Shown: positions 3,466 to 60,922 of the stretch, piece by piece
Layout of the letters: each line of letters opens with the position of its first letter
Position numbering within the stretch: the stretch's first letter is position 1
Source of the DNA: Bhargavaea sp. CC-171006
Lineage (GTDB): Bacteria > Bacillota > Bacilli > Bacillales_A > Planococcaceae
Length of the DNA: 64,000 nt
Assembly: GCF_009761675.1 (NCBI RefSeq)
Contig: NZ_QUZH01000006.1
Coordinates: 1-64,000 of the forward strand
Direction of reading: 5' to 3'
The notes under the pieces: model-generated
The model's input: only the letters and a program-made list of their open reading frames with translations
The model's database searches: none
Told to the model about the DNA's origin: nothing
Position numbers and translations under genes: made by a program

Positions 3466-3630
3466 TTTCGTCCTTCATGGTCGGAGTCTCGTCATTCAAG
3501 GCCTCAGTTTCGTCATTCGTGGCCCTAATTTCGTCATTCGCACGGCCGGATCCAGCGAATGACGAAATGATCTGGATGAATGACGAAATCAGACGGTCGA
3601 ATGACGAAACCTAACCGCTGAATGCGGAAA
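3466..3630. repeat. Inverted 4+4 array of an 11-nt core, 21-nt period (family A)
   Basis: Four copies of TTTCGTCATTC (starts 3466, 3487, 3508, 3529; first two with one substitution each) are spaced exactly 21 nt apart. Four copies of the reverse complement (3557, 3578, 3599, 3620; last with two changes) follow at the same period. Every pair is symmetric about position 3548. The 10-nt spacers are neither conserved nor complementary across the dyad, so a transcript would form four 11-bp helices separated by internal loops. The array lies between convergent genes, just past the terminator of the LytTR gene. Function unknown. Confidence 0.9.
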
Positions 3631-3653: not shown

Positions 3654-3688
3654 GAAACGCCGTTCCGGACATGCCGGAACGGCGTTTT
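3654..3688 (-). terminator. Terminator of the LytTR gene
   Basis: Strong inverted repeat (3655-3668 against 3674-3687). T residues follow in the minus direction, and a shorter T run lies on the plus side, so it may work both ways. Confidence 0.8.
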
Positions 3689-3693
3689 CCATT

Positions 3694-4347
3694 TCAGAAT
3701 CCGAGAACTTTCCTGAGCGTGGGGGCATGGGTCTGGCTGACCGGGATTTCCGATCCGTCCGATGTCGTGATGAGGAGTCCCGAGGTGAAGTCGTCTTTGC
3801 GGATGCGGCTGATGAAGTCCGTGTTGATGAGATAGGAGCGGTGCACCCGGAGGAAGGAGCCCGACAATTCCGCCTCCAGCTGTTTGAGTGTCCGGGTGGA
3901 GGCGAATTCTTCCCCGTCCGCATAGAACCAGGTTTTCTTGTCCGCGCTTTCGATGTGTGTGATGCGGCTGACGGAGACCGGCACCCAGTCTTCATCATTG
4001 CGGCCGGTCAGGTAACGGATCGGGGCGGCCTTCTCCGTTTTCTTTTCCTCGGGCAGGAGGATGATCACGGCACCCGGCAACGAATCAATTTCCACCGGAT
4101 AGCCGATTCCATAATAGGAAGAGTCACGGTCGGGGAAGGACAGCCGGTCTTCCGCGCGCCGTCCTGTCTGCAACACCCGGTGGGCAATGTCCCCCGGAGT
4201 GACGGGATGGCCGGTGGCGAGCGGGATGTCCAGGCCCCGCTGGTCCAGATGAATGTAATGGCCGTCTGCCGCCACGGCAAATGCCGCCTTTTCCGGAATC
4301 CACTCACAAGCAAATTGCGCCAACTGTTCTAACACACCGTTTTTCAT
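3694..4347 (-). CDS. LytTR-family transcriptional regulator
   Basis: The 217-residue protein has a C-terminal LytTR DNA-binding domain (about 115-217, with THIESADKKTWFYADG, LEAELSGSFLRVHRSYLIN and the terminal PTLRKVLGF). The N-terminal half (about 1-105) resembles a small-molecule or PAS/GAF-like sensor rather than a receiver: no phospho-acceptor aspartate pattern is visible. The start at 4347 is chosen because GGAGGAGA lies 5 nt upstream; an ATG at 4389 is also open. It diverges from aceA across about 190 nt, so it probably regulates the glyoxylate shunt (inference). Confidence 0.8.
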   Translation of the reverse strand: MKNGVLEQLAQFACEWIPEKAAFAVAADGHYIHLDQRGLDIPLATGHPVTPGDIAHRVLQTGRRAEDRLSFPDRDSSYYGIGYPVEIDSLPGAVIILLPEEKKTEKAAPIRYLTGRNDEDWVPVSVSRITHIESADKKTWFYADGEEFASTRTLKQLEAELSGSFLRVHRSYLINTDFISRIRKDDFTSGLLITTSDGSEIPVSQTHAPTLRKVLGF

Positions 4348-4434
4348 CTGATCTCCTCCATTCATCGGCGAACCGCCCATGTTCATCAAAGAATTTCCCT
4401 CTTTTGTCCGAAAACCCAGACAAAAAAGACGATT

Positions 4435-17860: not shown

Positions 17861-17885
17861 AAGCCCGCCTTTTGCGGGCCTTTTG
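17861..17885 (+). terminator. Terminator of lcfB
   Basis: GC-rich stem (17863-17868 against 17874-17879) with a short loop and a TTTT tail. Confidence 0.85.
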
Positions 17886-17911
17886 TATGTGCCGGGGTTG
17901 AATCGGGCCGC

Positions 17912-17965
17912 GAAAGTGACGCAAGTGACCGTGAAAGTGACGAAAGCGGTGCTGAAAGTGACGAA
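17912..17965. repeat. Three-copy array, 21-nt period (family B)
   Basis: The core GAAAGTGACGAA starts at 17912, 17933 and 17954, exactly 21 nt apart; the first copy has one change. The 9-nt spacers differ. It begins 27 nt after the lcfB terminator. The same family occurs in four copies at 55993-56067. Confidence 0.88.
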
Positions 17966-18002
17966 TGGTTCCTGGTTGCATATCTGATAGGGGGGTGCTG
18001 TC

Positions 18003-18173: not shown

Positions 18174-18244
18174 ACGTTTAACTGCAGTATGTTAACGTCT
18201 CACGCCAGTATGTTAACGTCTCAATGAACTATGTCAACGTTTCG
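18167..18244. repeat. Array of TATGTTAACGTCTCA cores, 21-nt period (family C)
   Basis: Three clear 15-nt cores start at 18188, 18209 and 18230 (exact 21-nt period; 6-nt spacers CGCCAG and ATGAAC). A degenerate fourth at 18167 overlaps the stop codon of the small gene before it. The same family has six copies at 60803-60922. Confidence 0.88.
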
Positions 18245-43680: not shown

Positions 43681-43784
43681 CCCTCATCTTCCAAGCATGC
43701 GCTTGCTGGACTTAGCACCTTGTTACATCGTAACGGTTGCTGCGGGATCTCAGGACCAGATTCCTCCCCCGACTCTTGATAAGG
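43681..43784 (-). promoter_or_regulatory. SAM (S-box) riboswitch
   Basis: On the minus strand the S-box hallmarks appear in order: CTTATCAAGAG with GGGGGAGG, a CTGGTCCTGAGA-type segment, CCCGCAGCAACC, then AAGGTGCTAAGTCCAGCAAG and a closing GGAAGATGAG, with the terminator behind. It turns off the organosulfur operon when SAM is abundant. Confidence 0.94.
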
Positions 43785-43815
43785 AAATCGAGCTATTCAA
43801 TTAGCGAGTACCCAC

Positions 43816-44218: not shown

Positions 44219-44262
44219 AAAAAAAGACCGCCGAATCAATTGCTGATTCGGGGTCTTTCTTG
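44219..44262. terminator. Bidirectional terminator at the csp gene
   Basis: Long hairpin with GAATCA/TGATTC inner and AAAGACC/GGTCTTT outer pairing; seven T residues on the minus strand. Confidence 0.85.
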
Positions 44263-44278
44263 TTTTTGCGATTTAAGA

Positions 44279-44479
44279 TTAAGCTTTTTGAACGTTAGCT
44301 GCTTGAGCTCCGCGAGCACCTTGCTCAACGTCAAACGTTACTTTTTGACCTTCGTCCAACGATTTGAATCCGTCGCTTTGGATAGCGGAGAAGTGTACGA
44401 ATACATCGTCGCCACCTTCACGTTCGATGAAGCCAAAACCTTTTTCTGCGTTAAACCATTTAACTGTACCTTGTTCCAT
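44279..44479 (-). CDS. Cold shock protein (CspB/CspD-like)
   Basis: A 66-residue single OB-fold RNA chaperone: [12 protein letters not shown] (RNP1) and [11 protein letters not shown] (RNP2). Binds single-stranded RNA and keeps it unfolded at low temperature. A gap of some 150 nt before any plausible promoter suggests the long leader usual for csp genes. Confidence 0.96.
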
Positions 44480-44667
44480 GTTTGTTGCCTCCTAGTGCGT
44501 TACCACACATTTTATTACTATCGTTGCTCAAAGTATCCTCAAGATGAAGAGTAAATATTCATCTTATCCTTTACGCCGAACAAAAATAAGTTATTTGTAT
44601 CATAACAGGCATCGGAAAGAAATGCAAATCCGAATGATCACTGGAAAAAACATTCTTCCCGATGTTG

Positions 44668-47027: not shown

Positions 47028-47179
47028 TTGCAACAAGGGGACTTGATTTGCAACAAGGCCTCTGATTTGCCACATGGGATCCGAATTTGCCGCACGGTCT
47101 CCGGAATTGCCACATGGCTTCCGGAAATGCCACAAGGCCTCCGGAATTGCCACAAGGCCTCCCGATTTGCAACAAGCGG
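47028..47179. repeat. Eight-copy array, 20-nt period (family D)
   Basis: The core ATTTGCCACAAGGCCTCCG (with variation) recurs with TTGC at 47028, 47048, 47067, 47087, 47107, 47127 (ATGC), 47147 and 47167: period 20 except one 19-nt step. Unlike the other families more of the unit is conserved. 20 nt breaks any reading frame, so it is not a peptide repeat. The array follows the enoyl-CoA hydratase terminator on the minus strand. Confidence 0.9.
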
Positions 47180-47190
47180 ATAGCCTCAAT

Positions 47191-55932: not shown

Positions 55933-55971
55933 AAAAAGACGGAAGGCACAAGTGGCCTTCCGTCCTTTTTT
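55933..55971 (+). terminator. Terminator of yvlB
   Basis: Perfect 10-bp stem (55938-55947 against 55955-55964) then six T residues. Confidence 0.92.
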
Positions 55972-55992
55972 GCGTCTGGGTGTCCGTCTTGC

Positions 55993-56067
55993 GAAAGTGA
56001 TGAATCGGTCGGTGAAAGTGACGAAAGCCTCCTTGAAAGTGACGAAAGGCGTCTTGAAAGTGACGAA
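55993..56067. repeat. Four-copy array, 21-nt period (family B)
   Basis: GAAAGTGACGAA cores start at 55993 (one change), 56014, 56035 and 56056, exactly 21 nt apart, with unrelated 9-nt spacers. It starts 22 nt after the yvlB terminator and lies between convergent genes. Same family as 17912-17965, 38 kb away. Confidence 0.9.
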
Positions 56068-56099
56068 TCAGCTGACCCCGATACCCGATCCCATACGGC

Positions 56100-60252: not shown

Positions 60253-60776
60253 GGCGGACCGACCGCCATCCTGCGCCGGTCAAAGGGACGAATCCGCTCT
60301 GGCACATGTACCGGACGGTCTCGTTCTTCAAGGTTGCCAAGAATTTCATCGTCATCCAGATTGGGCGGTATACCCCGTTCCTGTCCGTGAAGCGTTGGCT
60401 TTACCAAACATTTCTCGGCATGAACATCGGGGAGAAGACGGCGCTTGCGCTCATGGTCGTTCCGGATACGATGTTTCCGGAGCGCATCCGCATCGGCCGC
60501 AATTCGATCATAGGGTTTAACACGACGATCCTCGCCCACGAATACCTGACCGATGAATACCGGCTTGGTGATGTCATCATCGGCGACAACGTGATGATCG
60601 GCGCCAATACGACGATCCTGCCGGGAGTGGAGATCGGGGACGGCGCCACCGTCTCCGCTGCCTCGCTCGTCAACCGCGACATCCCCCCCGGCAGCCTTGC
60701 CGGGGGGAACCCGGTCCGCATCATCTACACCGCGGAACAACTGAAGGAACGGAAGAGAACCCCCCGTCAGCAATGA
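60249..60776 (+). CDS. yvoF: Hexapeptide-repeat acetyltransferase YvoF
   Basis: 175 residues. Left-handed beta-helix repeats: IRIGRNSIIGFNTTILAHEY, VIIGDNVMIGANTTILPGVE, IGDGATVSAASLVNRDIPPG; LAGGNPVRI ends the acetyl-CoA site. The ATGA overlap with ppaX shows one transcript. Position matches yvoF. Acceptor unknown; neighbours suggest envelope or sugar chemistry only weakly. Confidence 0.92.
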   Translation: MRRTDRHPAPVKGTNPLWHMYRTVSFFKVAKNFIVIQIGRYTPFLSVKRWLYQTFLGMNIGEKTALALMVVPDTMFPERIRIGRNSIIGFNTTILAHEYLTDEYRLGDVIIGDNVMIGANTTILPGVEIGDGATVSAASLVNRDIPPGSLAGGNPVRIIYTAEQLKERKRTPRQQ

Positions 60777-60788
60777 CGGGGGGTTCTT
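60757..60788 (+). terminator. Terminator at the end of the hprK cluster
   Basis: Perfect 14-bp stem (60757-60770 against 60775-60788 approx.) spanning the yvoF stop codon, with TTCTTAG behind. Confidence 0.82.
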
Positions 60789-60802: not shown

Positions 60803-60922
60803 TATGTCAACGTTTCACTCGAGTATGTTAACGTTTCACTGGAGTATGTTAACGTTTCACTGGAGTATGTTAACGTCTCACTCGAGTATGTCAACGTCTC
60901 AATGAAATAACGCAACGTCTCA
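60803..60922. repeat. Six-copy array, 21-nt period (family C)
   Basis: Core TATGTTAACGTTTCA (C/T variants) starts at 60803, 60824, 60845, 60866, 60887 and 60908, each exactly 21 nt apart; the last is degenerate. The 6-nt spacers alternate CTCGAG, CTGGAG, CTGGAG, CTCGAG, then ATGAAA. Starts 15 nt after the yvoF terminator. Same family as 18167-18244. Confidence 0.93.

Follow-up and report, generated by a model that had tools for sequence, protein, structure and literature searches.

Intergenic DNA of Bhargavaea sp. CC-171006 carries dispersed arrays of short cores that recur at an almost invariant step of 21 nt (20 nt in one family), two turns of the DNA helix, and this register is kept with other cores elsewhere in the genus and in other genera of the Planococcaceae. 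The arrays lie mostly after genes, often past a terminator, and where they persist between species their cores change more slowly than the spacers between them. They may be docking platforms for DNA-binding proteins.

Phased arrays in a 64-kb window

The window, the whole 64-kb stretch of DNA that was analysed (G000:C32:1-64000 of the source genome G000, 3.27 Mb in 32 contigs), holds arrays of families A, B, C and D (Table 1). In array C2 the unit starts (60803, 60824, 60845, 60866, 60887 and 60908) follow each other at exactly 21 nt, and the 15-nt core TATGTYAACGTYTCA is complete in five of the six units and degenerate in the last (TAACGCAACGTCTCA). The 21-nt spacing of six cores given in a preliminary description of this DNA is correct, and all arrays named there lie where it puts them; array D is absent from it. 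As that description had it, the C core recurs at 18188-18244, where we find three units, the last with one change, preceded by an extra degenerate unit, and family B keeps the identical 21-nt period in its two arrays; family A also has the 21-nt period given for it, but is not a simple array, its units running in two arms round a 17-nt centre. The B, C and D cores are direct repeats, and spacers measure 6-10 nt. A lag scan of the window (lags 12-79, identity threshold 0.72) brought out lags 20, 21, 40 and 42 only. Because family D has a period of 20 nt, the suggestion that the spacing amounts to seven codons is ruled out as its general cause, and a single one of the 154 arrays described below overlaps a called gene; a coding heptapeptide was rejected as well, since, although a single frame runs through the cores of C and B, the period of D is 20 and C2 follows an in-frame stop.

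Table 1. Arrays and neighbouring features in the window.
Feature	Position	Strand	Description
Array A left arm	3466-3539	-	four units TTTCGTCATTC, every 21 nt, outermost degenerate
Array A centre	3540-3556	.	17 nt, between both arms
Array A right arm	3557-3630	+	four units GAATGACGAAA, every 21 nt, outermost degenerate
Terminator-like hairpin, bidirectional	3656-3686	.	separates array A from the convergent LytTR gene; read in sequence
LytTR-domain protein gene	3694-4386	-	230 aa; adjoins array A
Array B1	17911-17973	+	three units, core YGAAAGTGAYGAA, 21 nt; terminator at 17863-17879
Array C1	18167-18244	+	four units, C2 core; first (18167) degenerate, last with one change
Array D	47028-47186	+	eight units, core TTGCMRCAWGG, period 20
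Array B2	55992-56075	+	four units, core YGAAAGTGAYGAA, 21 nt; terminator at 55938-55969
Hairpin, 12 bp, GC-rich	60757-60786	+	end of the upstream gene, directly before C2; plain in sequence
Array C2	60803-60928	+	six units, core TATGTYAACGTYTCA, 21 nt; the last one degenerate

The register is strict throughout the genus

Pairs of cores one period apart occur throughout G000, as the proposed recurrence across the chromosome implies: we counted 34 C pairs (at most 2 mismatches), 51 B pairs (at most 3) and 141 A pairs (at most 2) at 21 nt, and 18 D pairs (at most 3) at 20 nt, the reversed control patterns of the four cores giving 0 pairs each time. Each of these cores is found in six of the eight Bhargavaea genomes (G005 with one C pair) and is absent from G002 and G004. 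Using an array caller that required at least 3 units and tolerated deviations of ±2 from the period plus double steps, and with overlapping calls removed, we obtained 154 arrays in 77 loci of six Bhargavaea genomes (A 108, B 16, C 11, D 10, E 4, F 2 and H 3), a set in which family A is over-represented because 44 of the 77 loci were taken from named records for holding an A pair. Families E (TTCTAYGAGCGCT), F (TTTCGCGACCGCAAC) and H (AACGAAAGACCAAGC) likewise have a period of 21 nt; G, I, J and K are weaker candidates, and G appears to form a single superfamily with D.

Of 416 single-unit steps counted in families with a 21-nt period, 414 measure exactly 21 nt (one is 22 and one 23, with 3 double steps besides), and of 91 in family D, 87 measure exactly 20 nt (two are 19 and two 21, with 5 double steps), so the strict two-turn register proposed at the outset stands. 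Unit number also has preferred values: A arms of 3, 4, 5 and 6 units number 34, 67, 6 and 1, with the peak at 4, and 10 of the 16 B arrays have 5 units. With orthologs counted apart, the centre of two-armed A elements is exactly 17 nt long in 45 of 57, another 5 being longer by whole units (38 or 59 nt) and 7 having other lengths.

The same period emerged when no core was specified. A coreless scan of intergenic DNA from G000 gave periods of 21 (30 places), 42 (16), 20 (5), 40 (5) and 60 (1), with 18, 35 and 43 together in 4 places, and of the 36 arrays brought out by a stricter scan (four units, 10-column core, periods 14-34) 30 have period 21, 5 period 20 and 1 period 18, the sample for both being the window plus 20 stretches (449 kb) partly picked round known matches; the stricter scan found no arrays in five shuffles of this sample. 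In 14 stretches of G002 and G004 there are arrays with other cores, some resembling B and C, of which 10 have period 21, 3 period 20 and 1 period 34. Whole two-armed A elements are at places duplicated or triplicated in tandem with near-identical spacers (L127:8483-8900 and G006:C25:95121-95560). Several draft contigs start in or near arrays (G001:C10, C30 and C33; G006:C1, C8 and C40; G005:C2; G007:C16), as if the arrays broke short-read assemblies.

Arrays lie downstream of genes

At 33 loci of four genomes, with genes called by our own codon-usage script, we assigned arrays of the called families to intergenic regions of at least 30 nt. None of the 86 divergent regions holds an array, against 31 of the 274 co-directional and 21 of the 82 convergent ones (p = 8e-7 for 0/52). 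Counting overlaps longer than 45 nt, 1 of the 154 arrays runs into a called gene. A weak three-unit candidate of family I at L123:17634-17696, which stands outside the table of 154 arrays, sits in a divergent region.

Of 140 gene ends facing 106 merged elements, drawn from a table that held B calls overlapping A, 76 have a terminator before the array (67 of these within 60 nt), 20 have one only past the array, and at 44 none was detected; 76 of the 96 gene ends with a detected terminator thus have it ahead of the array. These figures agree with the idea that arrays are placed downstream of genes and often of terminators, whereas the narrower claim that they come just past a terminator fits B1 and B2 and does not extend to all window arrays: the hairpin before C2 received no terminator score in our consensus scan, and array A lies ahead of the bidirectional hairpin, between it and its left gene. 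Terminators are hardly commoner at array sites (45/73) than elsewhere (130/232), and the arrays therefore fill the space behind terminators instead of marking special ones. By eye, six arrays from G065, G042 and G057, genomes of other genera (see below), mostly adjoin terminator-like hairpins, one of the six lying behind an apparent tRNA gene end.

Cores are held where arrays persist

We compared five window loci with G003, G005 and G006, and also with G002 and G004 where the flanks matched. Across sister species array positions are mostly kept and unit number varies. By eye, the C2 ortholog has about 4 units in G003 and one core in G006, is decayed in G005 and G007 and shows no clear units in G001, the C1 ortholog of G003 has 5 units, and B2, with 4 units in G000, has 5, 5 and 6 in G003, G005 and G006; the B2 site of G002 holds a different array with the core GAGTTTTCC. 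Array A is present in G000, G003 and G006 and absent in G005. Counted by eye, the orthologs of array D in G003, G005 and G006 have some 13-16 units each; D cores differ blockwise among species (TTGCCACATGG, TTGAAATAAGG), a pattern like that of locally homogenised repeats. Since arrays decay or vanish in sister species, any one of them can be dispensed with.

Fifteen locus comparisons were made with G003, G005 and G006. In the 11 that aligned over >85%, differences affect 93 of 665 core sites versus 138 of 443 spacer sites (Fisher p = 1e-11), or 56 of 582 versus 118 of 370 (~10% versus ~32%) without the A site of G005, where there is no array; these values are an upper estimate of core constraint, because 4 of the 15 comparisons were dropped and repeat alignment favours core-to-core matches. 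The 4 dropped comparisons, of decayed C sites, show no difference between cores (62/193) and spacers (24/73), and all 15 together give 155/858 and 162/516. Thus, cores are held in persisting arrays, whereas in decaying ones they drift as the spacers do, and the faster divergence of spacers in persisting arrays points to selection on the core. In the families for which spacer likeness was compared, it is slightly higher within than between arrays (A, 0.40-0.44 versus 0.36; C, 0.48-0.58 versus 0.41; B, 0.42-0.53 versus 0.36, in a B set that included arrays overlapping A). Units two apart are often more alike in their spacers, which suggests some dimer duplication.

The period recurs with other cores in other Planococcaceae

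Among 143 genomes outside Bhargavaea, C core pairs occur in 0, B matches in 2 (G065 and G076) and A matches at single places in 2 (G027 and G033), while the reversed controls of C, B and A matched 1, 3 and 2 genomes; the B match of G065 is part of a five-unit array. A coreless five-unit scan of 34 stretches (639 kb) from 16 other genera of the Planococcaceae, shuffles of which gave none, found 9 arrays at period 21 (3 of them scoring at threshold), 3 at 18 and none at any other period, and a stricter four-unit scan found 4 at 21 and 2 at 18. The period-21 matches come from 5 of the 16 genera and have different cores, e.g., TAATAGACAAT, TGAGGATTA and CGCGGGTATT, with 2 of the 9 lying in L148, a G065 stretch picked for its B match, and none in four further G065 stretches. 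The register thus outlives change of the core.

Some of these cores are numerous in their own genomes. For GAGGATTA we counted 23 pairs in G065 and none in five congeners, with 0-1 per genome for the reversed control, and TAATAGACAAT pairs number 53 in G042, 50 in G057 and 0 in G025. Pairs of TAGACAAT at 21 nt occur in 79 of 261 genomes of the family, mostly singly and at control level, reach at least 5 in 10 genomes of four genera (reversed control, 2 genomes) and are found in 0 of the 8 Bhargavaea genomes. In a small sample of other Bacilli families (20 stretches, 359 kb) the scan gave 0 arrays at 20-21 and one at 26. The period, whose loss beyond the window had been named as the outcome that would speak against a real pattern, is therefore kept across genome, genus and other genera.

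A pair of A cores is present in at least 109 stretches of named genomes, at least 48 from Bhargavaea and at least 61 from others, the latter including, among the matches listed, many Verrucomicrobia, Planctomycetes and Akkermansia MAGs. Of the at least 61 stretches outside Bhargavaea, 30 were inspected; most of these are irregularly spaced heptad mosaics or CGGGAATGACGAAA elements and were set aside as lookalikes. The GAATGAC heptad mosaics, which resemble the A core, are intergenic in Verrucomicrobia and Planctomycetes MAGs, and some of them include inverted copies (among loci L155-L263). Among CGGGAATGACGAAA elements of other MAGs, L163, L178 and L214 have three or four units at 21 nt, and a period scan of the 61 listed A-pair stretches from outside Bhargavaea returned one period-21 match, L214; phased arrays may thus exist outside the Planococcaceae.

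The results favour a DNA-level element

The arrays could in principle act as RNA-level elements, i.e., as 3' untranslated or read-through RNA motifs, and their location after genes would suit this, as would the stable folding of the two-armed array A (z about -6 relative to shuffles), which comes from its complementary arms. However, the B arrays (z -0.1 and 0.5) and C arrays (z -1.7, on one strand, and -0.8) of the window are not clearly better folded than shuffles. In the A spacers the first position pairs above shuffles (z 3.0), whereas two of the ten positions fall well below them, and 44 distinct A centres show no excess of compensatory pairing (z -3.2 to +1.5), for which reason an RNA hairpin was rejected for the two-armed A although its cores are complementary and fold. 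Of the one-armed arrays (B-H) in co-directional regions, 17 share the orientation of the genes and 13 have the opposite one, no clear strand preference (B arrays, 6/7 with the genes, p = 0.125), and an Rfam search of the window at gathering threshold gave no match at arrays. Taken together, the pairing, folding, strand and Rfam results favour the DNA level. The transcript-level element once suggested finds no support in them, nor in the terminators that intervene between gene and array, and we give this reading hardly any credence. The Rfam matches elsewhere in the window are a SAM riboswitch and a nearby cspA thermoregulator (43681-43785 and 44222-44662, minus strand).

Comparison with known repeats and search for machinery

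The arrays share with REPs and BIMEs, the latter being composites of regularly spaced units, the properties of short, species-specific, many-copy intergenic sequences (PMC2817692, PMC6006769), and like them are dispersed, intergenic and 3' of genes. REPs form palindromes that bear a GT[AG]G head and occur in alternating orientation, whereas the B, C and D arrays are direct repeats, and the folding results for B and C give no sign of an imperfect palindrome. Nor is the cognate RAYT Y1 transposase (PF01797) present in any of the 8 Bhargavaea genomes or in G042 and G057, which led us to reject REP/RAYT identity; it was found in 5 of 17 genomes searched, the array-bearing G065, G019, G008 and G035 having one or two.

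LytTR direct repeats are about 9 bp long, which gives a 21-bp period when the gap is 12 bp. The direct repeats to which LytTR regulators bind are mostly separated by 12 bp (PMC6193735, PMC4064291), and LytTR sites (AgrA, AlgR, LRS operons) thus share the two-turn geometry of the arrays, within 20-22 bp; these sites, however, are pairs upstream of promoters, whereas the arrays comprise 3 to 20 units after genes. A LytTR gene, whose product has no Pfam match in its first 130 residues, borders array A of the window. Yet LytTR (PF04397) genes number 3 in seven Bhargavaea genomes and 4 in G002, within the range of relatives and too few for at least seven core families. The LytTR consensus 9-mer is absent from most cores, fitting 2 of 406 A, 1 of 78 B, 3 of 45 C, 0 of 106 D, 0 of 16 E, 0 of 7 F and 0 of 11 H units, although it occurs in 4 places in a C-like array of G004. 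We therefore set LytTR proteins aside as readers, since the geometry fits and the gene number and motif do not, and take the arrays to be extended LytTR-type sites only with great doubt.

BldC oligomerises cooperatively, head to tail, on direct repeats that vary in number (PMC5859096), but places one protomer per 9 bp on one motif at promoters, whereas the arrays have a 20-21 bp step and many cores. The TAACTGA heptamer repeats of Beggiatoaceae and cyanobacteria have a 7-nt unit and, in the genome described, lie mostly just upstream of start codons, whereas the arrays combine a core with a free spacer and lie downstream of genes. Iterons are direct repeats about two helical turns apart that are bound by Rep proteins, but form a single cluster at the origin beside the rep gene, whereas the arrays are dispersed over the chromosome. 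None of the 10 proteins flanking the window arrays gave a rep-type match, other flanking genes being compared only mutually. CRISPR arrays were rejected on the spacer length of 6-10 nt, with no Pfam match to a Cas family among the same 10 proteins.

Genes flanking arrays in the G000 sample include no recurring regulator family (3 paralogous pairs among 72). Array A had no plasmid match and array C2 no phage match, and viral contigs contained no exact core pairs of the B, C, D or TAATAGACA type; four viral stretches with an A pair, three of them near-identical, are lookalikes. No candidate for a protein family that tracks the arrays emerged among RAYT, LytTR and flanking genes.

Proposed mechanism and alternatives

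We tentatively favour, at a little under even chances, a reading of the arrays as DNA-level docking platforms on which core-specific proteins would assemble every two turns, perhaps as post-terminator barriers. Each core family would be recognised by its own putative DNA-binding protein, with successive molecules on one helix face every two turns (20-21 bp) contacting their neighbours, so that core and exact spacing would be kept while spacer letters drift; family A would be a two-armed platform with two head-to-tail rows running outward from the 17-bp centre. The constant spacing, changing cores, free spacers and preferred unit number are what cooperative, helix-phased binding predicts. Cooperative binding sites, proposed from the window at the start, accordingly stay the leading idea in that the two-turn register holds, although the search for a candidate binding protein came up empty. 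A platform in the spacer after genes, often past a terminator, would most likely serve as a barrier or boundary, candidate functions being the halting of read-through RNA polymerase or the organising of the nucleoid. DNA-bound proteins can block the path of RNA polymerase (PMC10310618), and a barrier role behind terminators would fit the position of the arrays. With slightly more reserve we propose that they represent an undescribed class of dispersed element defined by its register, whose core families would drift between species, each with its own protein from a putative superfamily or served by one copier with a 21-nt ruler, to form genome-wide barriers or organising sites. Searches for repeats of this kind or for work on Bhargavaea genomes, in a literature with few subscription journals and no preprints, brought up no description of the arrays.

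The main rival, which we consider unlikely, is biased amplification by an enzyme measuring out 21 nt: it would recognise the core and nick, copy or switch template, adding units to selfish arrays in which only intact cores are copied. One ruler for many unrelated cores would then be expected, as would the whole-unit changes in copy number between species, the 42-nt higher-order repeats and the greater likeness of spacers within arrays of A, B and C; most spacers, however, are far diverged beside intact cores, unlike the product of plain unit copying, and the peak of arm size at 4 and the missing RAYT genes of Bhargavaea, G042 and G057 also argue against it. That the arrays are ordinary minisatellites, neutral tandem duplications tolerated in intergenic DNA, strikes us as improbable. 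Such repeats would be intergenic, turn over in unit number and contain homogenised stretches, and in sister species they would decay, their cores and spacers diverging to the same degree at the decayed sites, all of which we see, but their period would hardly be nearly confined to 20-21 (35 of 36 matches in G000), nor would they have cores common to many loci, almost no spacer indels and a fixed A centre. The whole-unit likeness and unconstrained core typical of minisatellites are, the four decayed comparisons apart, not what persisting arrays display, where core change is slower than spacer change.

The usual classes of dispersed repeats in bacteria rest on sequence or on a palindromic fold. 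What stays constant in the present arrays is a physical length, two DNA turns, and the sequence varies among families and species, a combination that predicts either a cooperative binding system or a copying enzyme that bears a ruler. The core families would offer a natural series for how a protein and dozens of its sites switch specificity together, and arrays behind terminators a test case for protein roadblocks that insulate neighbouring bacterial genes.

Sites resembling sigma-70 promoters (TTRACA ... TAACAT, spacer 16) lie inside C units on the minus strand (60825-60894 and 18189-18237), with 3 in C2 and 2 in C1 (a third being nearby) where 0.3-0.4 would be expected per region scanned, and may be a by-product of the core.
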